Shown one piece after another: positions 3,225 through 34,639 of a stretch of DNA of 41,355 bases. A program made the position numbers and the translations under genes. The first letter of the stretch is position 1; every line of letters begins with the position of its first letter. The stretch is taken from positions 1-41,355 of IMG/VR virus record IMGVR_UViG_3300042261_002215, one strand, 5' to 3'. The stretch is from a virus. The notes under the pieces were generated by a model. The model made no database searches, was not told the DNA's origin, and saw only the letters and a list, made by a program, of their open reading frames with translations.

Positions 3225-3375
3225 AATCTTTAACCACTTATATTGTGAAAAAAACACAAAATTAACACATTAGACTAAGATTACCAAATTTTATTTTGAT
3301 GTTTTTGTGATATTTTCGATAATATCTGCATTAAGGCTAAATTTTATGTATTTATCTTTTTATTTGAACAAAATA

Positions 3376-3789
3376 TCAATTTTCCAATTTAACTTTTTCA
3401 ATCATTCTAACTACCCCGAAATAAATATCATTACTAAAATCAGTAATGTAAGGTTGATTGATGTTAGTGATCGAATTGAGTTCTATCATTTCATTCTGAA
3501 CTTTATATCTTTTAACCCAGTAATCACCTTCATAATTGAGTATCACCAAATCATTGTCTTTAAAAGTTGCTCCCTTTTCAATAGCCAGTCTCCGAAAATA
3601 TGTTCCGTTGAATTCTGGATCCTGTTCAGGGTCGATTGTACCTAAGTACATATTATCTTTGTTCAAAGTATCGAAATAGGACTTAAAACCTTTCCATTCT
3701 TCGAATTTATCGGAATTTTTCGGATTGGGTAGAAACCCTATTTCGATCTTCTCTTCCGTGTCAACCTCTTTAACATCAATGATTCTCAT
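3376..3789 (-). CDS. S24/LexA-like protein lacking HTH and serine nucleophile
   Basis: This 137-residue protein sits directly downstream of the repressor gene in the same orientation. Its C-terminal half has the beta-rich S24 pattern (KDNDLVIL, then WVKRYKV), aligning with DGDLVFF and LIKRYVV in the CI-like neighbour. K93 would correspond to the catalytic lysine. About 37 residues earlier, where S24 proteins carry the Ser of GxSM, there is no serine, and there is no N-terminal HTH. It therefore looks like a non-proteolytic S24 paralogue. It might modulate the repressor by mixed dimer formation, but that is inference. An operator-like palindrome lies 34 bases upstream of its ATG. Bases 3225-3375 hold nothing recognised. 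Confidence 0.6.
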   Translation of the reverse strand: MRIIDVKEVDTEEKIEIGFLPNPKNSDKFEEWKGFKSYFDTLNKDNMYLGTIDPEQDPEFNGTYFRRLAIEKGATFKDNDLVILNYEGDYWVKRYKVQNEMIELNSITNINQPYITDFSNDIYFGVVRMIEKVKLEN

Positions 3790-6721: not shown

Positions 6722-6911
6722 TCCGGAACAAGTATCTGAACTTTATTTCAGAAGAGAAAACCTGAAGACTTATGGTATCAAAAAGCCAATAGCAATGCAG
6801 GTTAGAGAGGCAATAGCTGAATACATCGATAAAAACAAAAACGAAAAAAGCCCTTTGACTGGAACTCAAAAGGCTTTCAAAAATTCAATTAATTTTCAAC
6901 TACAAAAATAA
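6702..6911 (+). CDS. Small early phage protein, unknown
   Basis: This 69-residue basic protein overlaps the end of the previous gene. An AAAGG about 9 bases upstream favours the ATG at 6702, though ATG codons at 6708 and 6711 are also possible. It is mostly helical (VREAIAEYIDKNKNE) with a Lys-rich C-terminus. No family is recognised. Confidence 0.5.
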   Translation: MYMMKIDPEQVSELYFRRENLKTYGIKKPIAMQVREAIAEYIDKNKNEKSPLTGTQKAFKNSINFQLQK

Positions 6912-15792: not shown

Positions 15793-16071
15793 ATGAGAAA
15801 TGAAGAAATAATTGAATTGCTTGAAGAAAAAGATTTGCCTGAACACTTTCAGATTGTAGCAGAAGTATGTGGTATTGAGACGGCACGAATTTTGATTAAA
15901 GAACTTGGAGGTATATCATTGAGTATTCCCATGGTTAACTCCTTGCGTTCTTTGATTGAAAGGTATATTTCAGAAAATTCAAAAGTGATCCCTATAAAAA
16001 AAATTGCTAGGGAATTAGGCATGAATGAAAGAGCAGTAACAAAAATTTTTAAGTCGATTAAGAAATATTAA
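15793..16071 (+). CDS. Mor-like transcriptional activator
   Basis: This 92-residue protein resembles the Mor family of phage Mu middle/late activators. The N-terminal half has the dimerisation pattern IVAEVCGIETARILIKELGGISLSIP, and the C-terminal half has a helix-turn-helix (IPIKKIARELGMNERAVTKIFK). AAGGA at 15781-15785 supports the start. Such proteins bind DNA as dimers and activate later phage promoters, fitting its place at the end of the early operon. A truncated second copy (~82% identical over ~73 residues by hand alignment) lies at 31384-31607, on the far side of the cargo island. Confidence 0.8.
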   Translation: MRNEEIIELLEEKDLPEHFQIVAEVCGIETARILIKELGGISLSIPMVNSLRSLIERYISENSKVIPIKKIARELGMNERAVTKIFKSIKKY

Positions 16072-16929: not shown

Positions 16930-16940
16930 TCAAAGTAAAG

Positions 16941-17061
16941 GATAGTCTCAAATATTAAAATGAATAATTAGAGAAAACAATTTTAGTGCTATTTTAATGA
17001 TTTAAAAATTAATTTATTTAAACTTATTGTTTTATGATTTAAGTTAAATTTTGAGACTATC
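16941..17061 (+). repeat. Widely spaced 12-bp inverted repeat with T-rich tail
   Basis: GATAGTCTCAAA (16941-16952) and TTTGAGACTATC (17050-17061) are perfect inverted repeats enclosing 97 AT-rich bases, followed by a T-run (TAATTTTTTTA). It may be a terminator with a long loop, or a small insertion-like remnant. It separates the first cargo gene from the 806-residue protein. Confidence 0.55.
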
Positions 17062-17092
17062 TAATTTTTTTATAAAATACATTTGATTTTTT

Positions 17093-19548: not shown

Positions 19549-20133
19549 TTGATAGATTACAGTAAATATGATGATAAGCAGCTAATTGGCTTCATAAGTC
19601 TTGAAGGCAATGAAAAAGAATTTGCTTTTAAGGAGATTTATTTTCGTTATGCTAAACGAATATATTCTCATTGTAAATTGAAATGTACAGATGAACATGA
19701 AGCAAAAGATATGCATCAAGAAATATGGATGATATTCTTTCAAGCAATCAAAGATGGTAAAACCGACCTTAAATTACCACATTATTTATATGGAATAGCT
19801 AGAAATATTTACTTGCAAAATTGTAAAAAACATAATAAACAAACAATAATTAACGAAGACAAATTTGAAATTGATTCTATTATATCACCATATATCAGTC
19901 TTGAAGCTTCAATTGAAGAACAAGATTTAATAAAAATTATCAAAATGGCTTCAGAATATTTAAATGAACCATTAAAAGAAACTTTCCATTTAAAATGGTT
20001 TTCCGGTTTACCAAATAATGAAATTGCAGAAATAACAGGTGAATCAGTTGATAATATAAAGCAACGTAGTCATAGATCTATGACTAAAATTTTGAAAATA
20101 TTATCTCCATTTATTAAAGATTTTCAAAAATAA
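19549..20133 (+). CDS. ECF-family RNA polymerase sigma factor
   Basis: This 194-residue protein has sigma region 2 (residues ~25-95: FKEIYFRYAKRIYSHC, DEHEAKDMHQEIWMIFFQAI) and region 4 (~135-190: LNEPLKETFHLKWFSGLPNNEIAEITGESVDNIKQRSHRSM), with no region 3, as in ECF sigma factors. The start is a TTG; no in-frame ATG lies near. It is followed after 7 bases by a membrane protein with an anti-sigma-like N-terminus, the usual pairing. It would redirect host RNA polymerase to a small set of promoters in response to an envelope signal, possibly those of this cargo island. A sigma factor inside a prophage cargo block is unusual. Confidence 0.9.
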   Translation: MIDYSKYDDKQLIGFISLEGNEKEFAFKEIYFRYAKRIYSHCKLKCTDEHEAKDMHQEIWMIFFQAIKDGKTDLKLPHYLYGIARNIYLQNCKKHNKQTIINEDKFEIDSIISPYISLEASIEEQDLIKIIKMASEYLNEPLKETFHLKWFSGLPNNEIAEITGESVDNIKQRSHRSMTKILKILSPFIKDFQK

Positions 20134-20140
20134 GGTTAAA

Positions 20141-21328
20141 ATGCTAGAAACTGAAATATATGAAAAATTTATTGAAGGTGAACTAACACCTGAAAGTGAA
20201 AAAAAATTTATGGCTCGTCTAACATTAAATGATGAATTAAGAACCAATTTTCGACATTATTTAGTTATGACCAATTCTATAAGAAATTATGTCGAAAATG
20301 ATAATTTACCACTTGAAGTATCTAATTCTATTTTCACTGCATTAGGTTTTTCAACAATAACAAATAATACAGATAAAATTAAAAAAGATAAATCCTCCTT
20401 TTTTCGAAGTAGATTTTTTACAGCACTTGTTACAGGTCTATTTACATTCATCATAGCATATTTCATTTTTAAACCCAATGATTCATTAGTTGAAATGAAA
20501 AAGGAAGATGAAAGTATACTAACTCAAAAAAATGAAATCCCTTTGGTAAAAATTGATAAAAATGAAAACTATAAGTCAGAGAAATCAGAGAAAAGTACAA
20601 AAGCTGAAAAATCATCAATAAATAAACTGATACCTGAAAACGAATTTGATAACAATAATTCAATTCTCCCAAAAAATCAATTGGCATTTGAAGAAATTTC
20701 TCCTTGTCAGGTTTCTTTTAATAAACAAAGCAACAACTCAATTCAAAGTTTAAGAAACTTTGAATTTACTAATATGAAAATAAAACCTTTTCCTGAATAT
20801 TCGGCAACAAAATATGATACACTTACATTTTACCGAAGTTACGATTCGAAATATAGATTCGAATTCAAGAATACACCTTCTTGGTTTTCATCTTCTCCAA
20901 TTGTTCAACCAAATAGGTTGAACAATTTCAATAATTTATCAATTTCACTATATTATCCAGTAACAAAAACAATTTTGCTAGGAGCTGAATTCAGACAAGA
21001 AACTTTTTATATAAATTATGACGATAAAGAAAAATCAGGTCAGGATTTTACCTTCTTCATGCAACCAAATATTTCCACTTATGGATTATTAATAAGGTAT
21101 TTGCCATTAGATATATGTTGTAGAATAAAACCTTATGGTCAAATAGAAATTGGTGGGAATAGTACAGGATTAGTATCAAGAGAAATGCTTGGCTTGGAAT
21201 GTCATTTATTTGAAAATGCTTATTTAACTATTGGTGGAGAAATTAATCAATTTTATTATCATCATCTGAATAAATGGTATACTTCTTCTAAATATAATAT
21301 TAATTACGGACTAGGACTTAAATTTTGA
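20141..21328 (+). CDS. Anti-sigma factor fused to an outer-membrane beta-barrel (dual-membrane type)
   Basis: This 395-residue protein follows the sigma gene by 7 bases. Residues ~1-60 are a cytoplasmic helical domain (YEKFIEGELTPESEKKFMARL) of the anti-sigma kind. One inner-membrane helix is seen (~91-112, FFTALVTGLFTFIIAYFIF). A ~140-residue polar linker (Lys/Asn/Ser-rich) follows. The last ~130 residues have alternating strands and end in YGLGLKF with a terminal Phe, a barrel-type beta-signal. This is the architecture of the dual membrane-spanning anti-sigma factors known from Bacteroides, whose barrel sits in the outer membrane while the N-terminus holds sigma. It would sense envelope state directly. 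No zinc-finger motif is present. Confidence 0.72.
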   Translation: MLETEIYEKFIEGELTPESEKKFMARLTLNDELRTNFRHYLVMTNSIRNYVENDNLPLEVSNSIFTALGFSTITNNTDKIKKDKSSFFRSRFFTALVTGLFTFIIAYFIFKPNDSLVEMKKEDESILTQKNEIPLVKIDKNENYKSEKSEKSTKAEKSSINKLIPENEFDNNNSILPKNQLAFEEISPCQVSFNKQSNNSIQSLRNFEFTNMKIKPFPEYSATKYDTLTFYRSYDSKYRFEFKNTPSWFSSSPIVQPNRLNNFNNLSISLYYPVTKTILLGAEFRQETFYINYDDKEKSGQDFTFFMQPNISTYGLLIRYLPLDICCRIKPYGQIEIGGNSTGLVSREMLGLECHLFENAYLTIGGEINQFYYHHLNKWYTSSKYNINYGLGLKF

Positions 21329-21804
21329 AATTACTTAATTTGAAAATACTTTATTTTATTTTTATAGCTAGCATAATTGTAAGCTGTTCTGATATTGTTA
21401 ATAGTGACTTGAATAAAGTTGGAGTTAAAAAAGATGGAAATTCATTAAATCCTATACTAATCGAATTTAGGTTTGATTTAGATGGACTTACATTTTATAA
21501 CGGAGACACTACTAAGCTATGGAGTGTTATAAAACCATCAATATGGGCAAAAACCTTTAATATAAGATTTCTTGGTAATGATAGTCTCAAAATATATAAT
21601 GTTTCAATGCTTAAAACAAATGATTTTAATGTATTTGCATTAAATTCACTACCTATTATACTAAAACCTAATGAAATAAAACCTGAAGATGTGATAATGA
21701 TAGAATTAAAAACATTAAATTTATTGCCAGGAATATATATTGATAAAATAATAATAAATAATGATCCAAATATAGGTTTCTTTATAAGTATAAAAGTAAA
21801 CTAA
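21325..21804 (+). CDS. Small lipoprotein
   Basis: This 159-residue protein starts with TTG overlapping the previous stop by 4 bases. It has a lipoprotein signal with a lipobox (SIIVSC, Cys21 or close), followed by a beta-rich domain with an immunoglobulin-like pattern (NPILIEFRFDLDGLTF, TFNIRFLGNDSLKIYNVSM). It is probably anchored in the inner or outer membrane. Coupled translation with the sigma/anti-sigma pair suggests it belongs to the same regulatory or envelope unit. No family is recognised. Confidence 0.7.
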   Translation: MKLLNLKILYFIFIASIIVSCSDIVNSDLNKVGVKKDGNSLNPILIEFRFDLDGLTFYNGDTTKLWSVIKPSIWAKTFNIRFLGNDSLKIYNVSMLKTNDFNVFALNSLPIILKPNEIKPEDVIMIELKTLNLLPGIYIDKIIINNDPNIGFFISIKVN

Positions 21805-21829
21805 TTTTTAAATTAAAATAAGGAATTTT

Positions 21830-22516
21830 ATGAAAAACAAAACACTACTTCTTTTCACTTTCACATTTATTTTGTTAAATATGCTGTTTACAACATTTTC
21901 ATCAGCACAAAATATCTGTCCACCTGATACAGGTTCAAATTGTAATCCATGGCAATTTGCTACTTACCAAACAACTACAGATAATCCAGATTGTAATTTA
22001 TCGGTCTATTATCATTATCGTATTTGTAATAATGTTTATCAAATTTATATCGATAGTTTGATTAAAAGTGGAAATTGTAATTATTTGAATGATAATTCTG
22101 GTGCGACTTCATTTCAGGATTGGCTTAATTTGGTTTTAATTGAAGAAACAACTAATTTATATGGTATTAATCCAGCTCATGATTGTCCTGATTCTTCTTT
22201 AAAAGTGATATTTTATACAGCCAGTTGCGGGCTTTGGGTGAAATGTGAGTATACAGTTGACTCGACCAGCAGAGTTTGCGATCCAGATTGGAGAGGAGAA
22301 TATCCTGATTTTTCTTTAGGTGGTAAAAGAAAAATACGTTTCTGGAAATGGCAATCTTGTGGTATTACTTGTTGCAAAAAAACTTATAGTATTTGTAAAA
22401 CACCTTCTACAACTGGAAGTGGATATATAATTCATATCAATTCAGTATCTAAACAGAAAATAGGTAATTGTACAAACCCAGATAATTTTATTCAACCTTG
22501 TCAAGATGGATGTTAG
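21830..22516 (+). CDS. Secreted cysteine-rich protein
   Basis: This 228-residue protein has a signal peptide (MKNKTLLLFTFTFILLNMLF, ending near SSAQ) and about 19 cysteines in the mature part, with clusters such as CNLSVYYHYRIC, WKWQSCGITCCKKTYSIC and a C-terminal CQDGC. Disulfide-bonded extracellular protein is the best reading. The alternation of short strands and Cys/Trp resembles the first cargo gene at 16336. AAGGAA precedes the ATG. The function is unknown; no sorting domain is visible. Confidence 0.72.
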   Translation: MKNKTLLLFTFTFILLNMLFTTFSSAQNICPPDTGSNCNPWQFATYQTTTDNPDCNLSVYYHYRICNNVYQIYIDSLIKSGNCNYLNDNSGATSFQDWLNLVLIEETTNLYGINPAHDCPDSSLKVIFYTASCGLWVKCEYTVDSTSRVCDPDWRGEYPDFSLGGKRKIRFWKWQSCGITCCKKTYSICKTPSTTGSGYIIHINSVSKQKIGNCTNPDNFIQPCQDGC

Positions 22517-22524
22517 GAGAAAAC

Positions 22525-23025
22525 ATGAAATATTTATTAATAATTGCGATTTTGTTATTACAGTTTCGAACAGTAATTGCTGAGGATTACTTTAATAATA
22601 ATCGAAAAGTGAATCTGTATAAAGTAGGTTATTTTAAAGACTTTCAGGGTAAATTAATAAAATTTGAAAATCTAAAAATAAATAAAACAAAACAACAAAA
22701 TTCAAATATTACTGAATTCCGATTTCATCGACTTGATGAAAAAGTATTTACTTCTAAAGATTTAAAAGAATGGCTTGAAGTAATAGATTTTACTGATATA
22801 AATTCGAGTTATGGTTTAAATTCATATATTCGTATTTCTCCAAATCCGGTTATTGAAAATTTAATGATTTATAGTAATGAAGGAGAAAAGTTTGAAATTT
22901 ATTCAGTTTATGGAATAAAAGTATTAGAAGGGATTACTCAAATACAAATTGATGTTAGAACTTTAAATTCAGGATTTTACTTGCTGAAAATTGGAACGGT
23001 TATTACTAAATTTATCAAAATTTAA
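22525..23025 (+). CDS. Small secreted protein with T9SS sorting domain
   Basis: This 166-residue protein starts at the ATG at 22525, preceded by AGGAG; an in-frame TTG at 22498 would lie inside the previous gene. It has a signal peptide (MKYLLIIAILLLQFRTVIA), a short variable middle of ~75 residues, and a clear T9SS type A sorting domain: ISPNPVIENLMIYS, FEIYSVYGIKV, then LNSGFYLLKIG and a KFIKI end. The sorting domain makes up about half of the protein, so the exported passenger is very small. It would be secreted across the outer membrane by the host's type IX machinery. Confidence 0.83.
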   Translation: MKYLLIIAILLLQFRTVIAEDYFNNNRKVNLYKVGYFKDFQGKLIKFENLKINKTKQQNSNITEFRFHRLDEKVFTSKDLKEWLEVIDFTDINSSYGLNSYIRISPNPVIENLMIYSNEGEKFEIYSVYGIKVLEGITQIQIDVRTLNSGFYLLKIGTVITKFIKI

Positions 23026-23041
23026 ATTGCATGGAGGAAAA

Positions 23042-23593
23042 ATGAGTTGGTTTAATGAATTTATTAAAGAATGTTGGATGATTTACCATAAGGGAAAAGG
23101 CTTAGGCGATATGATAAAAGAAATTTCCAATTACGAAATTGGCTTGTCTGGAGAAAATCATGTAGAAAAAAAATTAAAGGAATTGAAGTTTATTACTGGA
23201 AAGTCTCCTTTGAGTCATACACCTGCAGATGTATGGGGTTTTAAACATCGAACTTATTTTTATCATTTATCGTTATTTCAGGTAAAAACATCATTATCAG
23301 CAAATTTACCTGTCAAACTAAATGATTCTGATAAGGCTAAATTTAAAGAATTTGCCAAATTTGTTAAAGAACAATTTAACAAGTCTGACTTAGTTACTGA
23401 AGATTTCAAAGAAAAAAGCCTTGCTGTATCATTTGGTTATATTGGAGTAATTATAGGGGGTTCAAAGGAAAGAATGTCATACAAAATTTTTGAACCTTCC
23501 TATTTCGGATATTTAAGAAAAAATATACCAGATAGTAAATTAGAAAATGTTCTAAATTTAGTAAAAGCCTTACATGAGAAGGATATATGTTAA
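23042..23593 (+). CDS. PD-(D/E)XK-like nuclease-fold protein
   Basis: This 183-residue cytoplasmic protein (no signal peptide) starts at the ATG at 23042, preceded by GGAGG. Residues ~32-80 show a restriction-endonuclease-like pattern: a helix with GENHVEKKLKEL (E), PADVWGF (D), then a strand with LSLFQVKTS, a Q-x-K variant of the (D/E)xK motif like that in Mrr-type enzymes. A Lys-rich helical region and a C-terminal beta-rich part follow. Possible roles are a resolvase, a restriction or toxin nuclease, or a degenerate relative. It lies between the secreted-protein block and the lanthipeptide operon. The assignment is tentative. Confidence 0.45.
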   Translation: MSWFNEFIKECWMIYHKGKGLGDMIKEISNYEIGLSGENHVEKKLKELKFITGKSPLSHTPADVWGFKHRTYFYHLSLFQVKTSLSANLPVKLNDSDKAKFKEFAKFVKEQFNKSDLVTEDFKEKSLAVSFGYIGVIIGGSKERMSYKIFEPSYFGYLRKNIPDSKLENVLNLVKALHEKDIC

Positions 23594-23698
23594 TTGTATA
23601 AATGTTAATTCTATCTATGAAAATATTTGTTTTGAATTTAATTTTCAAACAGATATGGTCAGTTAAAATTTAATAAATTTGTCAAAATATTTAATCAA

Positions 23699-23731
23699 AA
23701 AGGAGGATAGCATATGATTGTTTTATGCTGA
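23699..23731 (+). other. Strong Shine-Dalgarno with a 5-codon reading frame
   Basis: AAAGGAGG (to 23706) is followed after 7 bases by ATG and a five-codon frame (MIVLC) ending at 23731. A second ATG at 23725 opens 12 more codons in another frame. The site is one of the strongest ribosome-binding sites in the cargo, yet no real gene follows it. It may be a regulatory leader peptide upstream of the lanthipeptide precursor. Confidence 0.45.
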
Positions 23732-23821
23732 ATACAGAAAAAAGCACAGTCGAAAGGATTTAAAACCTTTCGACTGGCATCGTTGATAAATCACGCTCAG
23801 TTCAATTAAATGTGATTTATC
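23709..23821 (+). promoter_or_regulatory. Structured leader RNA of the lanthipeptide operon: three consecutive hairpins
   Basis: Three perfect inverted repeats follow one another upstream of the precursor gene: AGCATA/TATGCT (23709-23714 with 23724-23729), CAGTCGAAAGG/CCTTTCGACTG (23747-23757 with 23766-23776, 8-base loop) and GATAAATCAC/GTGATTTATC (23785-23794 with 23812-23821, 17-base loop). None is followed directly by a clean T-run. The first stem overlaps the mini frame that starts at 23714. With that frame the arrangement resembles a translation-coupled attenuator or riboregulator. Bases 23594-23698 hold nothing else recognised. Confidence 0.6.
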
Positions 23822-23865
23822 TTATTACAAAATTAATTATTATTTTTTTATTAGGAGAAAAAAAA

Positions 23866-24114
23866 ATGGCACTATTAGAAGTAATGGAAATGAAAGTTGC
23901 AGACTTGCAATTTTTAACAACTAATTTCAATGGAGCAATGGGTTCATCTGGAACTGGCAGTGGACCTCAATGTGACCATACAACTGTACATTGTTGTTTT
24001 AGAGGTTCTAATGTAATAAAAGTAGCTCCAGCTTTACCAGGTGAATCAGCATCAGGTTATAAATTAATAGTTGGAACAAGTGAATTTGGCATAGGCATCG
24101 AATCGCCAGTTTAA
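23866..24114 (+). CDS. Putative class II lanthipeptide precursor
   Basis: This 82-residue peptide starts at the ATG at 23866 after AGGAGA. A leader of ~24 residues (MALLEVMEMKVADLQFLTTN...) ends in a double-glycine-type NGA at residues 22-24. The putative core is rich in Ser/Thr (S27, S28, T30, S32, T39, T40, S48, S61, S63, T71, S72, S80) and has three Cys (C36, C43, C44). It lies 56 bases before a LanM gene. It is probably the LanM substrate: Ser/Thr dehydrated, then joined to Cys as (methyl)lanthionine. The C-terminal ~38 residues have no Cys, which is unusual. No known lanthipeptide is recognised, so identity rests on context and composition. Confidence 0.72.
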   Translation: MALLEVMEMKVADLQFLTTNFNGAMGSSGTGSGPQCDHTTVHCCFRGSNVIKVAPALPGESASGYKLIVGTSEFGIGIESPV

Positions 24115-24123
24115 TGATTTAAA

Positions 24124-24150
24124 GATGAGTGCAATAATATTGCACTCATC
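24124..24150 (+). terminator. Hairpin between precursor and LanM genes
   Basis: GATGAGTGCAAT and ATTGCACTCATC form a perfect 12-bp stem with a 3-base loop (24136-24138). An A/T-rich stretch follows but no solid T-run, so it is probably a partial terminator or a 3'-end stabiliser. Such an element between lanA and lanM is common and yields more precursor than enzyme mRNA. Confidence 0.65.
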
Positions 24151-24170: not shown

Positions 24171-27083
24171 ATGATAAATAAAAATCGAATATACCATATT
24201 GAATTCTGCAATTCATTAGTTGATTGTAATGGTTTTCAATTAAAATCTGATGGTTCTTTTGAACTCATAGATTTAATACCTGGAACTGTTGATTTTATAG
24301 AAAATCTTATTGATGAAATTTTTGAGATTGATCAAATTTCTAAAAGAGAATTATCAATAATAATTTCAAAAAATTTACTTGAATTGCTAAGAGATCCAAT
24401 GCTTTATATCTTCAATTTTCATTCAGAATACAAATTTAATTCATTTTTTGAAAATTTGCATAATCAAGGTATTAAGAATATAGTAAAAACAATATTCTAT
24501 GAATATCCTAAATTAAGTCATTATTTTAATAAAAGTTTAGTATACATTTTGAACTACTTTGAAACATTATTTAATAATTTTAAAAATAATTTGGTTGAAT
24601 TAAGTAGTTATTATGGACAAATAGAGAATATAACAAAAATATCGTGGCCTATTGGTGATTTTCATAATAGAAACACAAGTAATACACTTCTGACTTTTTC
24701 TAACGGTAAGGAAATATATTATAAAAAAAGAAATCCTGAAAATAACTATTTTTTTTCAGAATTTGTATCATATCTCAAAATTTTAGGTTTACAAATTGAT
24801 TTTAAAGAACCTTATAGGCATTCTTATACAAATTATTATTGGGAAGAAAAAATTAATGTATTAGAATCATTAAACCCTGAAATGATTAATGATTATTATT
24901 TTAATTTAGGAAATTATCTTGCAATATTTTATTTTGTTGGAATTTATGATATTACTTTGGATAATTTATTAGCAAATTTAAACTGCCCAATATTTATTGA
25001 TTTAGAGTGTATTTTTCGACCAAATTTAAATTATTCAGATAAAAATCCATTCCCAGAATTTTATTCATATTTTAATGAATCATGTGTAAGTTCTGGATTA
25101 CTTCCATTTTGGACACCTCTCGGAGCAGATAAAGTAAGTAATATTGGAGGAATTAATAAAGAATTAAATTTTACGGATGAATTACCAGAATTAGTAATTA
25201 GAAATGATGGAAAATTAGGAAGAGATACTAAGAAAATAAAAAGAGAAATTAATCATATTCCAAAATTGACAAATAATAAATATTGCTTTATCGAGGATTA
25301 TATTGAACAATTTCTATCAGGTTTTGGAACTTGTATGAAGTTTTTTTTAACCAATAAAAATAGAATTCATGATTTTATTAATAATAATAAAAATATAAAT
25401 AAAATAAAGTCTAGGGTTTTGCTAAGACATACTTTCGTATACAATTCTATAATTAAAGAAATAAAGCACCCTGTTAAATTGAAAGATTTAAAAAAAACAA
25501 ATTTGTTATTAAATTTTTTGTATAATGCACAAGATAATGTAATGACAAAAGAAATAATTAAATCAGAAATAAATCAGATTAAAAATTTGGACATTCCATA
25601 TTTTTACACTTATCCTAATTCATTAACAATATATGCATTTAATAATAAAATTAATTTTCCAATAATTAAGGAAACAGGTTTAAACGCCACGTTTAGAAGG
25701 ATTTTAAATTTAAATGATAAAGAAATTGAAAATCAAACTACTCTTGTAAAAAAATCACTTATATGTTTCAAAGAAATTGAAACTGAAATTTTAGGAGAAA
25801 AAACAATTTCAAAAAAAATCAATGCTAATAATCAATTAGAAAATACATTTAGCAAAGAAGATTTAAAGAAATATTTATCAAGCCTTGGAGAATACATTTT
25901 ATCAAGAGGAATTTCTACAGACAATTCTTATAATTGGTTTGAAATATCTGTAGGAAGGTCAGGGAATTGGGAGTTTTTACCAAAAACACCAGGAATTTAT
26001 GATGGTTTAGATGGATTAGGTATTTTCTATTTATACTTATATAAAATTACGAATGTTATTGAATTTAAAAACATTTCAAAAAATATTCTTGAAAAATCAA
26101 TATTTTTACTTGAAAAAATTGATTTAAAGGCAAAATACCATCTCTTATCCCCTTTAAATTTTCCTTTGAGTACAATATTTTTTTTATGGCATTATAGTAG
26201 ATTAACTGGTGAGATGGAAAATATCTTAAAACATTTAATCAAAAATTTTCTAGTTCCATTAGTTAATAAAAATATTAATTGTGATGAATATTTAGATTTT
26301 GTTAATGGTTCAGCCGGCTTATTAACATTAGTTTGCAATTTATATAAGATGTATCCATCAAATGACCTTAAGAATATCATTGTTAAGACTAAAAATCATA
26401 TTATTAATAAATCAATAAATAATAATAATTGTTTAACATGGAATTCTTTGAATTTTAATAACTTAGTTGGTTTTGCCCACGGAAATAGTGGTTTTATCTT
26501 TGCTTTAACAAATTATTATGAAATATCGCAAGATAAAAGTATATTAGATTATATAGTTGGATCATTTAATTATATTCAATCGCAATACAATTCCAAAAGT
26601 TCTTCTTGGTATGATTTGCGATATCCCCAAAAACAAGATTCTTTAGCTTCCTGGTGTCATGGTTCATCAGGAATTATAATATCTTATGCTAAAGCAAAAA
26701 AATATTTAAAAAATAATTATTTTGAATTTGAAAATGATCTTCAAAAAATTATTCATAAAATATTTGATGATGAAATATATAATGATGATTGTATTTGTCA
26801 TGGCTTTTGGGGAAATATTGAAGCAATTAGCATATTAAATAATCAATTAAATAATCAATTAAATAATCCTTCTTTAAACAATATTATTTTGGAAAAAGGA
26901 ATTATAAAATTACAAAATATTGCTAAAAATCATGAAAATTGGAAAACAGGATTTAAAAGCAATAAATATAATATAGTAGGTTTATTTTTGGGTCTAACTG
27001 GTATTGGCTATAATATAATGAAAATGTTTTGGCCTGATGAAATTCCTTCAATACTCAGTTTAGATGGACCTATTATTGAATAA
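24171..27083 (+). CDS. lanM: Class II lanthipeptide synthetase LanM
   Basis: This 970-residue bifunctional enzyme dehydrates Ser/Thr of the precursor and cyclises them with Cys. The N-terminal DUF4135 dehydratase part has kinase-like elements: YYKKRN near 190, DITLDN near 257-262 and FIDLE near 273-277. The C-terminal LanC cyclase (~570-970) has GFAHG (H770) and the zinc ligands C829 (WCHG) and C876-H877 (CHG), all intact. Length is typical of LanM. A tandem repeat in the linker region encodes NNQLNNQLNN (near residue 890). It lies between the precursor and two exported zinc peptidases. No LanT transporter is seen. Confidence 0.93.
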   Translation: MINKNRIYHIEFCNSLVDCNGFQLKSDGSFELIDLIPGTVDFIENLIDEIFEIDQISKRELSIIISKNLLELLRDPMLYIFNFHSEYKFNSFFENLHNQGIKNIVKTIFYEYPKLSHYFNKSLVYILNYFETLFNNFKNNLVELSSYYGQIENITKISWPIGDFHNRNTSNTLLTFSNGKEIYYKKRNPENNYFFSEFVSYLKILGLQIDFKEPYRHSYTNYYWEEKINVLESLNPEMINDYYFNLGNYLAIFYFVGIYDITLDNLLANLNCPIFIDLECIFRPNLNYSDKNPFPEFYSYFNESCVSSGLLPFWTPLGADKVSNIGGINKELNFTDELPELVIRNDGKLGRDTKKIKREINHIPKLTNNKYCFIEDYIEQFLSGFGTCMKFFLTNKNRIHDFINNNKNINKIKSRVLLRHTFVYNSIIKEIKHPVKLKDLKKTNLLLNFLYNAQDNVMTKEIIKSEINQIKNLDIPYFYTYPNSLTIYAFNNKINFPIIKETGLNATFRRILNLNDKEIENQTTLVKKSLICFKEIETEILGEKTISKKINANNQLENTFSKEDLKKYLSSLGEYILSRGISTDNSYNWFEISVGRSGNWEFLPKTPGIYDGLDGLGIFYLYLYKITNVIEFKNISKNILEKSIFLLEKIDLKAKYHLLSPLNFPLSTIFFLWHYSRLTGEMENILKHLIKNFLVPLVNKNINCDEYLDFVNGSAGLLTLVCNLYKMYPSNDLKNIIVKTKNHIINKSINNNNCLTWNSLNFNNLVGFAHGNSGFIFALTNYYEISQDKSILDYIVGSFNYIQSQYNSKSSSWYDLRYPQKQDSLASWCHGSSGIIISYAKAKKYLKNNYFEFENDLQKIIHKIFDDEIYNDDCICHGFWGNIEAISILNNQLNNQLNNPSLNNIILEKGIIKLQNIAKNHENWKTGFKSNKYNIVGLFLGLTGIGYNIMKMFWPDEIPSILSLDGPIIE

Positions 27084-27099
27084 TGATAAAGGAGAAATC

Positions 27100-28236
27100 A
27101 TGTATAATAAAAAGGTTTTTACTCTGTTTGTTCTATTTAGTCTATTTACTTATTTTTCATATTCTCAAATAAAAGACAAAAATAATTATTTTCTTCATTC
27201 TTTGGTTGGGCAGAATTTGAATCAAGAATCTAAATCAGCAATTAGTCATTGGATAAAATACCTATATGAATCAAATGATAGTTTAAGAGCAAATTATTGG
27301 GATAAAGCTGAAAGTGTGGAATTAAAAGAGGACTATTGCCTTTTTGATAAATTATTAATGCAAATGCCGAGAGAAATGCTTCTTCAATACTTCCCTCCTT
27401 ATATCCTTTCTGTTGAAAAGATTGAGAATGATTATTTTATTAAGACTGTGTTTGCACAAAAAGAAGTTGTGCTGAACGATACATCTTTAAATAATCAAAA
27501 TCCTGTTGCAATTATTGATGTAATTGTATCAAAACAAAATAATCAATTCGTTTTAAAAAATACTCTTAATTACCAGACCCTTAATTATAAAAAATTTAAG
27601 ATCGGAAATATCGAATATTTTGTTCATCCTCTACTCAAGATTGAAGAATTATCTTGCAAGAATGCTGTTAAATTTTGTGATTCACTTTCAAATATTTGGA
27701 ATGGATCTAATCTTAAAGAATCTATAAAATATTTTGTAACACCTTCTCCAGAGTCTCTTTCAAGATTACTTGGTTTTGATTTTGCTTATTTTGGTTACAC
27801 TTTTGGCTATACTTCAATAAATGCCAAATATATATTTTCAGGAACAGGCAATTTCAATTATAAGCACGAACTTTCACACTTGATTTTAGGAAATGTGAGA
27901 AATAAGTTTTTAGATGAAGGCTTAGCTACTTTTTTTGGAGGTACTGGTAATGAGGATTTTTCGAAGCTTGAAAAGGAGTTTAGTAAAGAAAATTATCCGT
28001 TAAGTAGTGAAAAAATTGATTCAATACTTAAGTATAGTAATAGCAAAAATTTTTATGTTCTTGGAGCTTTAATTGTAAGAGATATTATTGAATCAAAAGG
28101 AATAGGTGAAATAAAAAAGCTTACAAATGTTGAGAACAATAATAACAAACTATTTGAATTATTATTCAACTTTACAAGAACAAAAAAAGAAGATTTTATT
28201 AAAAGATTGAATCTGAAACTACTGAAAGTAAAATAA
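27100..28236 (+). CDS. Exported gluzincin-type zinc peptidase
   Basis: This 378-residue protein has a signal peptide (MYNKKVFTLFVLFSLFTYFSYS) and a zinc-binding H256-E-L-S-H260 followed by E273 in FLDEGLATFF, the HExxH...E pattern of peptidase MA-like (gluzincin) enzymes. I chose the ATG at 27100 (GGAGA upstream); an in-frame ATG at 27064 lies inside lanM. It is the third gene of the operon, 16 bases after lanM and 2 bases before an M16 peptidase. It could trim the lanthipeptide leader in the periplasm, or be an immunity or scavenging protease. The N-terminal ~200 residues are of unknown fold. Confidence 0.78.
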   Translation: MYNKKVFTLFVLFSLFTYFSYSQIKDKNNYFLHSLVGQNLNQESKSAISHWIKYLYESNDSLRANYWDKAESVELKEDYCLFDKLLMQMPREMLLQYFPPYILSVEKIENDYFIKTVFAQKEVVLNDTSLNNQNPVAIIDVIVSKQNNQFVLKNTLNYQTLNYKKFKIGNIEYFVHPLLKIEELSCKNAVKFCDSLSNIWNGSNLKESIKYFVTPSPESLSRLLGFDFAYFGYTFGYTSINAKYIFSGTGNFNYKHELSHLILGNVRNKFLDEGLATFFGGTGNEDFSKLEKEFSKENYPLSSEKIDSILKYSNSKNFYVLGALIVRDIIESKGIGEIKKLTNVENNNNKLFELLFNFTRTKKEDFIKRLNLKLLKVK

Positions 28237-28238
28237 TT

Positions 28239-31178
28239 ATGAATAAGTACATTATCTTTTTCTCTATTTTTTCCATAAATTTCTTATTAGCACAAAAGCA
28301 ACAACATTATGAAAAAATATCTCAAAAGGATTTTAATGGCTTCATTTATGAGTATGTTACAGATGACCCTACACAATTAAGAATTTACACTTTGAATAAT
28401 GGATTAAAAGTCTATTTATCAAAAAACTCAGATGAACCAAGAATTCAGACTTATATCGCTGTTAAAGCCGGCTCTACTTATGATCCTTCAGATGCTACCG
28501 GATTAGCACATTATTTAGAGCATATGATGTTTAAAGGTTCAGATAAAATTTCAACAACTAATTTTGAAAAGGAAGAACCACTAATTAATGATATTTCAGA
28601 TTTATATGAAGAACATTTTATAGAAACTAATGTAGAAAAGAAGAAACAGATTTATCATAAAATTGATAGTATATCAAACATTGCATCAAAGTTTGCAATT
28701 GCCAATGAATTCGATAAATTGTTATTAAGCATTGGAGCTAAAGATATAAATGCTACTACATCTAATGAAAGAACTATTTATTATAGCAATATTCCATCAA
28801 ATGAAGTTGAGAAATGGTTGATATTGGAAAAAGAAAGATTTTCAAAACTTGTTTTACGCCTTTTTCATACAGAATTAGAAGCAGTTTATGAAGAATTTAA
28901 TATGAGCCAAGATAATGAAGAAGAACGCATTTATAATTCATTATATGAAAATTTATTTAAAGATCATCCTTATGGAACTCAAACAATTATTGGCAAATCT
29001 GAGCATCTAAAAAGTCCTTCGATGAAAAAAATTATGGATTATTGGTCAAAATATTATGTACCCAATAATATGGCAATTTGTTTATCCGGAGATTTTGACT
29101 GCGATAAAGTAATATTATTGATTAATAAGTATTTTGGTGGTTTAGAACTTAAAGATTTAAATTTGCCAATATATCACAAGTTAAATCATATTGAAAAACC
29201 TATTGTTGTAAATATATATGGTCCTGAAACTGAAAAAGTATTTATTGGTTTTAGATCTTGTGGTAGTAATGATAATGAAAAAAAGTACTACCAGATTATT
29301 AATCTATTATTAAACAATAATAAATCTGGTATTATTGATACTGATTTATTGCAATCACAAAAAGTTTTAAAAGCAGGCTCAATTTTTAAACCATTAATTA
29401 ATAGTGGTACTGAAATACTTTATGGAGAACCTAACCAAAATCAGGATATTGAATCTGTCAAGGAATTATTATTGAAATCAATCGAAAAGATTAAAGAAGG
29501 TAAATTTGATGATTGGCTAATTAAAGCATGTATTAATCAGATGAAAATTCTAAGAATAAATGAATTTGAAAAAAATGGATCAAGAGCATTTTCATTCGTA
29601 AAATCATTTACTGAAGAATACAATTGGGAAGATTATTTAAAAGTATTTAATGATTTAGAAAAAATCACAAAAATAGATATTATTAATTTTGCTAATCAAC
29701 ATTTTAAAGACAATTATGTAGTAGTTTTTAAAAGAAAAGGTATTGATAACACAGTTATAAAACTCGATAAGCCGAAAATATCGGCAATTGAAGTAAATAA
29801 AGACCTAAATTCGGAATTTTACAAAAGCTTTATCAAAATTTCTGTAATACCAATTTTACCTGAATTTATTGACTACGAAAAATCCATTTTAAAAAGCAAA
29901 TTAAAAAATAATATTGAGCTTAATTATATTAAAAATCAAAGCAATGATTTATTTAAATTGTATTATATAGTTGATATTGGTAAAAAACATAATAAATATC
30001 TTGATATTGCTTTAAGTTATTTAACAAAATTAGGAACATCGAGCCTTTCACCACCTGATTTACAAAAAGAACTTTTTAAATTGGGATTGGAATTTAAAGT
30101 CTCTGTTGATGATAATCGAGCAATTGTTTCATTGACAGGAATTGATGAATCATTTGATAAAGGAATTGAGATTTTAGAAAATATAATCAATACTTCTTTA
30201 CCTGACACAAAAATATTTAATGATTTTATAAATAGTTATTTAACTTCCAGAGAAAATTCAAAATCAGATAAAGACCAAATATTTTGGAGTGGATTATTAA
30301 ATTATGGTCAATATGGAAGAGTAAATCCATTCACAGACATTCTTTCTTCAAATGAAATAAAAAAAATAAAGCCTGATGATTTAACTAATTTAATTAAATC
30401 AATATTAAGCTATAAGCACTATATTTTTTATTATGGTAAAAGAGATTTAAGTGGTGTATCAAAACTATTAACTGAAAAACATAAGATACCTAATGATAAA
30501 CTCAAAGATACACCTAATGGAAAAATATTTGAAACAAAAAAAACCGATAAAAATCAAGTCTATTTTGTAAACTATGATATGGTTCAAACATATATTTTAT
30601 TAATGCAAAGAAAAGAAAAATTTAACAGTAATGTTTATATAAAATCAAAGGTTTTCAATGAGTATTATGGTGGTGGTTTATCTTCTATTGCATTCCAAGA
30701 AATTAGAGAATCAAAAGGATTGGCATATTCTGTTTATGCAGCATTATTTAATGCAGAAAAGGAAAACGAAAATAATTATTTGTTAGGATTTATGGCAACT
30801 CAACCAGACAAAATGCAATCAGCAATTGAAGAAATGAAAAAACTATTCTATAAAATGCCAAAATCTGATAATTTATTTTATTCAGCAAAAGAATCAGTCA
30901 AAAAGAATATTGAAAGTGAAAGAATTACGAAGGATAAAATATTCTGGAAATATTTAGCTTTGAAAGATTTAGGTGTAAATTATGATATAAGAAAAGATAT
31001 TTATCATGATATACAAGATTTTTCATTTAAAGATTTAAATGATTTTTTTGATGATAATATAAAAAGTGAAAAATTCACTTTCTTAATTATGGGTAATAGA
31101 AATACTATAAATATCGACAATTTAAAGTCAATTGGTAATGTTAAAGAGCTATCAGTTGAAGAAATTTTTAATTATTGA
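28239..31178 (+). CDS. Exported M16-family zinc metallopeptidase
   Basis: This 979-residue protein is an insulinase/pitrilysin-like M16 peptidase. It has a signal peptide (MNKYIIFFSIFSINFLLAQ) and the inverted zinc motif H91-Y-L-E94-H95. A third ligand is expected in ELEAVYEEF (residues 212-220). Before it lies a ~45-residue insertion, and NATTSNERTIYY is a family-typical substrate-cleft stretch. A second, non-catalytic M16 domain fills ~500-979. Some lanthipeptide leaders are known to be removed by M16B peptidases, so it is a good candidate for maturation, paired with the gluzincin upstream. It ends the operon; a long AT-rich intergenic stretch with a mor remnant follows. Confidence 0.9.
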   Translation: MNKYIIFFSIFSINFLLAQKQQHYEKISQKDFNGFIYEYVTDDPTQLRIYTLNNGLKVYLSKNSDEPRIQTYIAVKAGSTYDPSDATGLAHYLEHMMFKGSDKISTTNFEKEEPLINDISDLYEEHFIETNVEKKKQIYHKIDSISNIASKFAIANEFDKLLLSIGAKDINATTSNERTIYYSNIPSNEVEKWLILEKERFSKLVLRLFHTELEAVYEEFNMSQDNEEERIYNSLYENLFKDHPYGTQTIIGKSEHLKSPSMKKIMDYWSKYYVPNNMAICLSGDFDCDKVILLINKYFGGLELKDLNLPIYHKLNHIEKPIVVNIYGPETEKVFIGFRSCGSNDNEKKYYQIINLLLNNNKSGIIDTDLLQSQKVLKAGSIFKPLINSGTEILYGEPNQNQDIESVKELLLKSIEKIKEGKFDDWLIKACINQMKILRINEFEKNGSRAFSFVKSFTEEYNWEDYLKVFNDLEKITKIDIINFANQHFKDNYVVVFKRKGIDNTVIKLDKPKISAIEVNKDLNSEFYKSFIKISVIPILPEFIDYEKSILKSKLKNNIELNYIKNQSNDLFKLYYIVDIGKKHNKYLDIALSYLTKLGTSSLSPPDLQKELFKLGLEFKVSVDDNRAIVSLTGIDESFDKGIEILENIINTSLPDTKIFNDFINSYLTSRENSKSDKDQIFWSGLLNYGQYGRVNPFTDILSSNEIKKIKPDDLTNLIKSILSYKHYIFYYGKRDLSGVSKLLTEKHKIPNDKLKDTPNGKIFETKKTDKNQVYFVNYDMVQTYILLMQRKEKFNSNVYIKSKVFNEYYGGGLSSIAFQEIRESKGLAYSVYAALFNAEKENENNYLLGFMATQPDKMQSAIEEMKKLFYKMPKSDNLFYSAKESVKKNIESERITKDKIFWKYLALKDLGVNYDIRKDIYHDIQDFSFKDLNDFFDDNIKSEKFTFLIMGNRNTINIDNLKSIGNVKELSVEEIFNY

Positions 31179-31383: not shown

Positions 31384-31607
31384 AACACTTTCAGATTGTT
31401 GCTGAAGTCTGTGGTATTGAGACGGCACAGCTTTTGATAAAAGAACTTGGTGGGATAACATTGAGTATTCCCATGGTTAATTCTTTACGTACTTTGATAG
31501 AGAGATATGTTTCAGAAAATGCAAAAGAAATACCTATCAAGAAAATAGCCAGGGAGCTTGGAATGAATGAAAGAGCAATTTCAAATATTTTAAAGAGATT
31601 GAAATAA
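31384..31607 (+). pseudogene. 5'-truncated second copy of the Mor-like gene
   Basis: The frame reads HFQIVAEVCGIETAQLLIKE and onward to a stop at 31605-31607. It aligns with residues ~18-90 of the intact Mor-like protein at 15793, with roughly 60 of 73 residues identical by eye. An in-frame TAA (31383-31385) directly precedes the homology, and the first ~17 codons and any start are missing. The remaining protein retains a complete helix-turn-helix. It is a remnant or recombination scar marking the right edge of the cargo. Bases 31179-31383 and 31608-31762 hold nothing else recognised. Confidence 0.85.
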
Positions 31608-31762: not shown

Positions 31763-32731
31763 ATGAATAGAGACCTTTATTTTAAATATATAGACGAAAA
31801 ACTTCATGTTTTGGCAAACAGGATTGAAACAAGAGGTAAACTTAATATTCTTGATATTCATTTACATTCAGAGAATTTTTATCTTCATTTCTTCAACATG
31901 CTTTATGGATATCAGCTTGAAAATTTAAATTCAAAATTGCAAAATGTTGAAGCAATTGATTTGATTGACCATAAAAACAAAATAATCATCCAAGTATCTG
32001 GAACATGTTCTAAACAAAAAGTTGAATCTGCTCTTGGAAAGCAAATATTAGATAATTATAGAAATTATTCTTTTAAATTTATTTCCATTGCAAAGGACAC
32101 ATCGGAATTAAGGAAGAAAACGTTTAATAATCCCTATTCATTAACGTTTACACCCAGCATAGATATTTTCGATATAGTTACTTTGTTAAAAGAAATTTTA
32201 AGCAAAAAGGCTGAAGAAATAAAAAAAATATACAATTTCATAAAAGATGAACTTGGTGGCGAAATAGATATCGTGAAGCTTGATTCAAATTTAGCATCTG
32301 TTATAAATATTCTATCAAAAGAAAAATGGGATGATGCTAATAAAAGTGAATTTGTTAATAGCTTTGAAATTGAAAGAAAAATAACCCATAATGATCTGAA
32401 AGATTCAAAAGGATTGATAGATGAATATTGTCAATTTTATGGAAGAGTTGACCAGAAATATTCTGAATTCGATGCAATGGGTACAAATAAAAGCAATTCA
32501 GTTTTAGCAACTATCAAAAGAGAATATTTAAAAATAAAGAGTTCTGGAAATGCTGATTTTGTATTTTTATCTGTCATTGAAAAAATTAAAGATAAAGTCA
32601 TAGAAAGTGCCAATTTTGTTGAACTTCCTATAGATGAAATAGAGCTATGCATCGACATTTTGGTTGTTGATGCATTCATTCGTTGTAAAATATTTGAAAA
32701 CCCTAAAGACTATAATTATGCTATTGCCTGA
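31763..32731 (+). CDS. ABC-3C system SMEK-domain protein (effector)
   Basis: This 322-residue protein opens with a SMEK domain. Its diagnostic stretch, LNILDIHLHSENFYLHFFNMLYGYQLENLN, is followed by AIDLIDHKNKIIIQVSG and then a helical region that could bind partners. SMEK proteins are effector components of ABC-three-component (ABC-3C) defence systems, together with a middle component and a DUF2326 ATPase, both directly downstream. The ID...IQV segment resembles a restriction-endonuclease-like core, suggesting a nuclease effector, but the catalytic lysine is not obvious. It overlaps the next gene by 14 bases. Confidence 0.83.
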   Translation: MNRDLYFKYIDEKLHVLANRIETRGKLNILDIHLHSENFYLHFFNMLYGYQLENLNSKLQNVEAIDLIDHKNKIIIQVSGTCSKQKVESALGKQILDNYRNYSFKFISIAKDTSELRKKTFNNPYSLTFTPSIDIFDIVTLLKEILSKKAEEIKKIYNFIKDELGGEIDIVKLDSNLASVINILSKEKWDDANKSEFVNSFEIERKITHNDLKDSKGLIDEYCQFYGRVDQKYSEFDAMGTNKSNSVLATIKREYLKIKSSGNADFVFLSVIEKIKDKVIESANFVELPIDEIELCIDILVVDAFIRCKIFENPKDYNYAIA

Positions 32732-32942
32732 TAACATACATCCAGATAAAAGCATCTATTATAATGGTGCCCTTGTATTACAAATTCTTCAAAAGAAAGA
32801 AGGATTAGATTTAGTCAACCTTTATCATGAAGTAAAGCAACAGAAAGAATTAACATTTCCTGTTTTTATTTTATGCTTGGATTGGTTGTACATTGTAAAT
32901 ATTGCTGAAGTTATAGACGGTAGGGTAGAATTATGTTCTTAA
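32718..32942 (+). CDS. ABC-3C system middle component
   Basis: This 74-residue protein (ATG at 32718, coupled to the gene before) has the pattern of ABC-3C middle-component 6 proteins: MLLPDNIHPDKSIYYNGALVL at the start and FPVFILCLDWLYIVNI in the second half, ending near RVELCS. Middle components link the ATPase to the effector. It overlaps the SMEK gene by 14 bases and the ATPase gene by 10, giving a single tightly coupled unit. A longer in-frame start at 32664 is less likely. Confidence 0.82.
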   Translation: MLLPDNIHPDKSIYYNGALVLQILQKKEGLDLVNLYHEVKQQKELTFPVFILCLDWLYIVNIAEVIDGRVELCS

Positions 32943-34639
32943 AATCGCTGAAAATAACAAAAGGAGCAATGGTTATACGGGATATTGAGTTTCGCAAAGG
33001 AATAAATTTAATCGTAGATAACAGTGCAGGTAAAATTACAGGTAATAGTGTTGGAAAAACAACTGTTCTTAAACTGATTGATTTTTGTTTTGGTGCCGAC
33101 AAAAAAAATATTTGGGAAGATCCAGAGAATAAAAAAGAAGTTTATAATCTCGTAAAAAATTATTTAATAGACAATGAGATATTAATTACCCTTACTTTGA
33201 CTGAAAATCTTGATAATGAGTTTACTAAAGAGTTAGTGATTGAGAGAAACTTTTTAAGTGCTAGAAGTAAAGTAATAAGAAAAATAAATGGAGAAAGTCT
33301 TACAGAGGATGATTTTGAGCCCAAATTAACTGAAATTCTATTTCCTGAACATTTTTCTGATAAACCTACACTGAGACAAATAATATCTCATAATATTAGA
33401 TATAATGATTTAAGTATAAATAACACACTGAAAACCCTTAATAGATATACTACTGATGCTGAATATGAAACTTTGCACTTATTCCTATTAGGATGTGAGT
33501 TTACAAATGGGGATAGCAAGCAAAAGTTGCTAGAAAAAATAAAACAAGAAAATACCTTTAAAAACAGATTGGAAAAAGTCCAAACTAAATCTGCATATGA
33601 AACAACACTGTCTTTAATCGAAAATGATATTGAGGAACTTAATAGAAGAAAATCAAATCTTAATTTGAATGAAAATTTTGAATCTGACCTTGATGCTTTA
33701 AATAAAGTGAAATATAATATCAATAAACTTAGTTCAGAAATAAGTAAATTGAATATTCGAAAAGACCTGATAAATGAAGCTGTATCAGAATTGAAAGCAT
33801 CAAGTTCAACAATAGATACTAATCAACTAAATCAAATTTACCAACAGGCTACCGATGCTTTAGGAAAGTTACAGAAGTCATTTGAAGATATGGTTGAATA
33901 TCATAATAAAATGATTTTTGAAAAGATAAAGTTTATCTCAAACGAACTCCCAACAATTATATCAAAAATTGATATAAATAATATTCAATTAACCAAACTT
34001 TTAGAAAAAGAAGAGGAGTTATCTCAGATTATATCGAAAAGTGATTCGTTTGAAGAACTTGAGATTCTTATCGGAGAATTGAACGAAAAATATAGGCTTA
34101 AAGGTGAATATGATAATATTGTTCAGCAGTTAACAGAAGTTGAAAATAACCTTGAATCATATAATGAGACTTTAAGATCAATTGATGAAGAATTATTCTC
34201 TGATGATTTTGAAGCAATTGTAAAGACTCAATTGAATAAGTTTAACAGGCATTTTTCAACAGTATCAGAGTTGTTATATAATGAAAAGTATGCTTTAAAA
34301 TACGATAAGGTTATAAATAAAATAGGACAACGACTTTATAAGTTTAGTGCATTTAATACAAATTTCAGTTCTGGAAAAAAACAAGGAGAGATTTCTTGTT
34401 TTGATATAGCGTATACTTTTTTTGCTGATGAAGAAAACATTCCTTGTATGCATTTTATCCTTAATGACAAAAAAGAATTGATGCATGATAACCAACTTGT
34501 TAAAATCGCCAATTTGGTTAACAAAAGTGAGATCCAATTTGTTGCATCAATCTTGAGAGATAAACTACCAGATGATTTAAATAAAGAAGAATTTTTTATA
34601 ATTGAACTGTCTGAAGATAGTAAATTATTTAAAATTTAA
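32933..34639 (+). CDS. ABC-3C system DUF2326 ATPase
   Basis: This 568-residue ABC/SMC-like ATPase has Walker A GNSVGKTT (residues 37-44, preceded by INLIVDNSAGK), a long coiled coil (~200-460) and a C-terminal DUF2326 part with SCFDIAYTFFADEENIPCMHFILNDKKEL. It is the sensor/motor of the ABC-3C set, expected to recognise DNA or DNA-end structures of invading phage and activate the SMEK effector. Start by ATG at 32933 overlapping the middle component. The family is found in prophages and other mobile elements. Confidence 0.86.
   Translation: MFLKSLKITKGAMVIRDIEFRKGINLIVDNSAGKITGNSVGKTTVLKLIDFCFGADKKNIWEDPENKKEVYNLVKNYLIDNEILITLTLTENLDNEFTKELVIERNFLSARSKVIRKINGESLTEDDFEPKLTEILFPEHFSDKPTLRQIISHNIRYNDLSINNTLKTLNRYTTDAEYETLHLFLLGCEFTNGDSKQKLLEKIKQENTFKNRLEKVQTKSAYETTLSLIENDIEELNRRKSNLNLNENFESDLDALNKVKYNINKLSSEISKLNIRKDLINEAVSELKASSSTIDTNQLNQIYQQATDALGKLQKSFEDMVEYHNKMIFEKIKFISNELPTIISKIDINNIQLTKLLEKEEELSQIISKSDSFEELEILIGELNEKYRLKGEYDNIVQQLTEVENNLESYNETLRSIDEELFSDDFEAIVKTQLNKFNRHFSTVSELLYNEKYALKYDKVINKIGQRLYKFSAFNTNFSSGKKQGEISCFDIAYTFFADEENIPCMHFILNDKKELMHDNQLVKIANLVNKSEIQFVASILRDKLPDDLNKEEFFIIELSEDSKLFKI

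Follow-up and report, generated by a model that had tools for sequence, protein, structure and literature searches.

Classical leader-peptide attenuation requires a terminator on the plus strand, or a stem that sequesters the Shine-Dalgarno (SD) sequence, and either has to respond to the position of the ribosome. In the amino-acid attenuators (ilv, his and trp) a short SD-led frame is followed by hairpins. The Bacteroides have DonS-type cis-antisense RNAs, 78–128 nt long, which face susC of PULs (PMC7366714). In plasmid R1 (IncFII), the antisense RNA CopA faces a leader that contains an SD-led mini-ORF, tap, ahead of the main ribosome site, and it controls the downstream gene, repA, indirectly through leader-peptide coupling (PMC5717011).

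Here we investigate the leader of a candidate lanthipeptide precursor gene, lanA, on a 41,355-base virus contig, the whole of which was analysed and is referred to as the window. A preliminary description of this leader had proposed leader-peptide attenuation or a riboregulator. Like the amino-acid attenuators, the locus has a short SD-led frame and then hairpins, but it lacks a plus-strand terminator and anti-terminator pairing, and the frame is too short. The likeness to the DonS-type RNAs would lie in the phylum, the length (about 86 nt predicted here), the TAnnTTTG promoter (a candidate here), and the position opposite the start region of the target (PMC7366714). However, their target is susC, while here it would be the precursor gene of a prophage lanthipeptide locus, lanA-lanM, and the RNA is predicted from sequence. 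CopA/tap/repA has in common with the locus the SD-led leader mini-ORF and an antisense RNA, predicted here, that faces the leader ahead of the main ribosome site. It differs in that there is no replication gene here and that the mini-ORF is of 5 codons with 135 nt from its stop to the start of lanA, so that translational coupling is not evident. By analogy, the locus plausibly works like the DonS-type RNAs or CopA.

Are the hairpins of this leader part of the lanA mRNA, or do they belong to a gene on the other strand? We give a probability of about 0.45 to the latter, that is, to a cis-antisense RNA gene on the minus strand that tunes lanA. If this is true, it would be a case of antisense control of a phage-carried lanthipeptide in Kapabacteria/Ignavibacteria, for which we know of no described small RNAs, and it would show how a prophage silences costly antimicrobial cargo. 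The element is of an ordinary regulatory kind and is notable for its cargo and its host.

The prophage and its lanthipeptide genes

The contig encodes a tyrosine integrase, S24 repressor-like genes, and a DnaB-like helicase, as well as a Mu-type portal, protein F, a tail gene, and terminase. The portal has relatives, at 79–96% identity, in MAGs assigned to Ignavibacteria and to Candidatus Kapabacteria. On this sequence evidence the contig is therefore a Mu-like prophage or temperate phage of the Kapabacteria/Ignavibacteria part of the Bacteroidota. It also has an AbiL-type defence-like pair (AbiLi/AbiLii, RloB-like; 1336–3257) adjoining the integrase, and an ABC-three-component/Lamassu-like defence-like set with SMEK and DUF2326 domains (31763–34639).

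Between the replication genes and the late genes is a cargo region containing an ECF sigma factor, T9SS-type secreted proteins, the candidate lanA, LanM, a HELSH metalloprotease-like protein, and an M16 peptidase. The cargo, of about 15 kb, has a complete small DNA-binding-type gene at one end and, at the other, a second copy that is partial and has diverged (15793–16071 and 31384–31607); a related phage contig, L011, has one copy of this gene and is without such cargo. Between two of the cargo genes, at 16930–17066, GATAGTCTCAAA and TTTGAGACTATC are present as inverted copies about 100 nt apart, possibly a small inserted element. The lanthipeptide part of the cargo is comprised of the following:

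23866..24114, plus strand: candidate lanA, an 82-aa precursor containing Cys/Ser/Thr, named by its position beside LanM
24124..24150, plus strand: terminator-like hairpin of 12 bp in the gap from lanA to lanM
24171..27083, plus strand: class II lanthipeptide synthetase LanM (PF13575, PF05147; TIGR03897, 505 bits)
27064..28236, plus strand: secreted HELSH metalloprotease-like protein (motif seen in the translation; no Pfam match)
28239..31178, plus strand: M16 double-domain peptidase

As expected of a class II lanthipeptide locus, a LanM with DUF4135 and LanC-like domains adjoins a Ser/Thr/Cys precursor, which itself has no match in a family search. The hairpin at 24124..24150 may reduce read-through into lanM. 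In this LanM cluster of a phage genome (24171–31178) there are two metalloproteases and no obvious C39 transporter. A longer lanA starting from GTG 23812 (100 aa) was rejected; there is no SD there, and ATG 23866 has AGGAG at 8 nt.

The lanA leader on the plus strand

The features of the leader, from its candidate promoter to lanA, are:

23674..23681, plus strand: TAAATTTG, candidate -7 box for the predicted leader transcript of lanA, a perfect TAnnTTTG and the only one on this strand of the intergenic region
23700..23706, plus strand: mini-ORF SD, AAGGAGG, with a 7-nt spacer to the ATG
23709–23714/23724–23729 (23709..23729), plus strand: 6-bp inverted repeat AGCATA/TATGCT over the mini-ORF, at chance level (z = -0.46)
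23714..23731, plus strand: mini-ORF MIVLC* (ATG ATT GTT TTA TGC TGA), a predicted frame of 5 codons and a stop
23747–23757/23766–23776: 11-bp inverted repeat CAGTCGAAAGG/CCTTTCGACTG with a loop of 8
23785–23794/23812–23821, a hairpin on either strand: 10-bp inverted repeat GATAAATCAC/GTGATTTATC with a loop of 17, in the plus leader or as the 5' hairpin of a predicted minus-strand RNA
23853..23857, plus strand: lanA SD, AGGAG, with the lanA ATG at 23866

The TAnnTTTG sequence is the primary -7 box of the Bacteroidota (PMC7366714; PMC9723704), and in flavobacteria it spans -12 to -5 (PMC9723704). With this spacing, transcripts would start near 23686 on the plus strand and near 23823 on the minus strand, where the intergenic region has its one other perfect box. 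The predicted lanA leader is thus about 180 nt long with the mini-ORF near its 5' end. The plus-strand box has no clear -33 TTTG. In the bacteria of the host class, TAnnTTTG is enriched upstream of genes on the coding strand (G002, 47 versus 24; G003, 32 versus 22), as it is in the window (8 versus 3), and in the same comparison TATAAT is not enriched.

The SD of the mini-ORF, previously called near-perfect, is in fact a perfect AAGGAGG seven bases before the ATG, and the five-codon frame is present as described. AAGGAGG followed after 4–10 bases by ATG is rare, with 5 sites in 1.05 Mb of strand sequence from the host contigs, and strong SD sites are also rare before the genes of host-class contigs. 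Given this rarity of a strong SD with a nearby ATG, it is unlikely that the mini-ORF arose by chance alone, and it is probably meaningful. Its frame stays open for another 25 codons past the TGA, to a TAA at 23807 (23732–23809), probably by chance.

All three of the perfect inverted repeats reported earlier are there, yet they are not of equal weight: the 11-bp and 10-bp repeats are far above chance, and the 6-bp repeat is not. When the 272-nt intergenic region is shuffled, only 0.3% of the resulting sequences have two stems of at least 10 bp. The 120-nt windows at this position rank 4–5 of 2062 on the plus strand and 2–3 of 2062 on the minus strand when corrected for G+C, and the 90-nt core folds with z = -6.8 on the plus and -7.3 on the minus strand, where the structure is more defined. 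The statement that there is more structure here than in anything else in the cargo was nearly right, although other perfect stems of 10–12 bp are present, for example at 20740, 20899, and 24124. That no RNA family matches is borne out by an Rfam search of the leader, in which nothing was above the gathering threshold and the weak matches were at chance level (E 1.5–10). Two other candidates were dropped. A partial copy of the hairpin at 3671–3694 is inside an S24-peptidase-like coding frame and does not match in structure, and an integron attC site was dismissed by eye, there being no RYYYAAC/GTTRRRY cores.

No plus-strand terminator was found between the mini-ORF and lanA; on this strand the 11-bp hairpin is followed by GGCATCG and not by a U-tract. 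In ensemble folding, the predicted exposure of the lanA SD stays at about 0.66 for a free leader, for one that is bound by antisense RNA or masked at its hairpins, and for one with a ribosome on the mini-ORF. Neither a stem covering the lanA ribosome site nor an alternative pairing over that site is predicted, nor is any pairing that bridges the mini-ORF stop and the lanA start. By simple folding, then, the lanA site is predicted to be neither opened nor closed by a stalled ribosome or by pairing with the antisense RNA. With no plus-strand terminator and no hairpin that hides the SD, leader-peptide attenuation is left without visible machinery, and the 6-bp stem that spans the mini-ORF does not exceed chance; the attenuation reading is overall weakly supported. 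The riboregulator that had been proposed along with it survives as a putative regulator of lanA, though of a different form and on the minus strand, where the strong hairpins read as parts of a candidate promoter, 5' hairpin, and intrinsic terminator series.

Minus-strand signals and a predicted antisense RNA

Before strong hairpins ahead of a gene are taken for a riboswitch or an attenuator, both strands need to be considered. Because hairpins can be read on both strands, signals that are strand-asymmetric were sought. Those of the minus strand are:

23835–23828, minus strand: TAATTTTG, candidate -7 box for the predicted antisense RNA, a perfect TAnnTTTG 6 nt ahead of the 10-bp hairpin
23823–23738, minus strand: predicted cis-antisense RNA of about 86 nt, with a 5' hairpin and a 3' intrinsic terminator (fold z = -7.3; MFE frequency 0.43)
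23738..23778, minus strand: predicted intrinsic terminator, the 11-bp stem, lengthened past a one-base bulge by two G-C pairs and followed directly by TTTTTT at 23743–23738

A strict scan finds 2 canonical terminators on both strands of the window together and 0 in 5 shuffles. In host-class contigs there are 21 terminators of the same type versus 4 in shuffles, and 11 of the 21 are within 150 nt of the end of a gene on the same strand. The enrichment and the placement just after same-strand genes show that this type of terminator is real in these bacteria. The -33 region of the minus-strand box is weak, with TTTC at 21 nt and no good TTTG. The layout of the signals is not random. When the hairpins are held fixed and the flanks are shuffled, a minus-strand box at the right distance together with a U-tract appears in 0.1% of shuffles on this strand, and in 0.55% on either strand, a test that was devised after the pattern had been seen and that counts as moderate support. 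The combination of box, 5' hairpin, and terminator occurs 0 times in 526 kb of host contigs.

The second of the two canonical terminators, at 6849–6910, is on the minus strand as well; it too has a TAnnTTTG before it and is in a short gap ahead of a gene at 6925. This box-terminator pair (6910–6849) may well be fortuitous and shows that such a layout is possible without a regulatory role. A minus-strand protein across the lanA leader was also considered and rejected, the longest frame being 37 codons with no SD.

The predicted 86-nt RNA has one dominant structure, two hairpins joined by a short linker, and lies wholly inside the interval from the stop of the mini-ORF (23731) to the ribosome site of lanA (23853). 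Its complementarity to the lanA leader is perfect over 23738–23823, provided that the lanA mRNA starts upstream of 23738, as the plus-strand box at 23674 suggests. From these signals we infer the two transcripts, their pairing, and an effect on lanA together with its sign. From TAATTTTG, RNA polymerase would begin at about 23823, and it would halt at six U's near 23738, giving an RNA of about 86 nt with a 5' stem-loop and a terminator stem-loop. This RNA would pair with the middle of the lanA leader, in the part that separates the mini-ORF from the lanA ribosome site, and would hold expression low for lanA and, via read-through, for lanM. Since the predicted pairing neither hides nor frees the lanA SD, the likelier routes would be RNase III cleavage of the duplex, polymerase collision, or a block of translation coupled to the mini-ORF.

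The mini-ORF may act as a leader peptide, as Tap does for RepA in plasmid R1. It is quite unlikely, though conceivable, that the antisense RNA blocks translation of the five-codon frame and that the lanthipeptide is freed on a change in antisense synthesis or in the prophage state, which would be a CopA/Tap-type circuit transferred from the control of plasmid copy number to a lysogenic-conversion bacteriocin. Against an antisense RNA of any such function is the finding that the antisense RNAs of flavobacteria stem mostly from imperfect termination or non-canonical initiation, and have been termed pervasive transcription (PMC9723704).

Other readings and the border of the lan module

Might the hairpins serve the lanA mRNA itself? 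As a structured 5' leader on the plus strand, with or without the mini-ORF, they could stabilise the mRNA or pace its translation, a weaker form of the preliminary proposal that we regard as rather unlikely. The plus-strand core folds almost equally well (z = -6.8), the perfect box at 23674–23681 puts both hairpins and the mini-ORF inside the leader, and the mini-ORF SD is strong and rare. However, there is no plus-strand terminator, the exposure of the lanA SD is the same whatever the occupancy of the mini-ORF, the 6-bp stem is at chance, and the U-tract and box of the minus strand would be left without a reason.

Another unlikely reading, given slightly less credit, is that only the minus-strand terminator functions. 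Placed where the lanthipeptide module begins on the left, it would stop transcription that arrives leftward, such as that of the phage late genes, and the 10-bp hairpin would be incidental or part of the same insulator. The late genes, from 41 kb to 35 kb, are indeed on the minus strand, and the canonical terminator is at the border where a module shared with related prophages (genes as far as 23593) gives way to the lan module, which is not shared. Yet the late genes are 11 kb away with no minus-strand gene between, and the 10-bp hairpin and its adjacent -7 box are unexplained.

It is improbable that the repeats act as DNA, either as operators for a regulator such as the upstream ECF sigma/anti-sigma pair or as a recombination scar of module exchange: a 30-bp near-palindrome at 23747–23776 and the 10-bp arms could bind dimers, and the module border is nearby, but no second copy is present in the window, no known site is recognised, and the U-tract and box are again unexplained. 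Strict attenuation, in which a ribosome stalled at the Ile-Val-Leu-Cys codons would switch either a terminator or the ribosome site of lanA, has in its favour a perfect-SD mini-ORF directly ahead of the hairpins with Ile, Val, Leu, and Cys codons, but with no plus-strand terminator, no alternative pairing over the lanA ribosome site, and five codons only, it is close to refuted.

How does the antisense reading fare in related loci? No related lan leader was found in searches via lanA, LanM, the flanking gene p22991, the hairpin sequences, plasmids, or phages, and the leader DNA has only short, chance-level matches (17–49 nt) in 391 host-class genomes. Full-length relatives of LanM were found at about 25% identity, and none of the loci examined has a comparable promoter and terminator pair. 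The genes just upstream of the leader are present in two related prophages. Contig C58 of G003 has the sigma factor (59% identity), a 228-aa secreted protein (78%), and p22991 (57%), and contig C330 of G004 has the 228-aa protein at 90% identity. Downstream, both contigs have other, unrelated modules in place of the lan genes. Because these related prophages share the upstream genes and carry unrelated modules downstream, the leader is assigned to the lan module, with which it would have entered or to which it would belong.

A variable cargo slot adjoining the tail genes is seen in this prophage family of Kapabacteria/Ignavibacteria (19549–23593 here; 5200–9238 in L122; 7–1137 in L121). Its shared part holds the ECF sigma factor, a probable anti-sigma-like gene, and secreted proteins. 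The part that is exchanged follows p22991 or a T9SS gene, and is the lan module here and large T9SS-type secreted proteins elsewhere.
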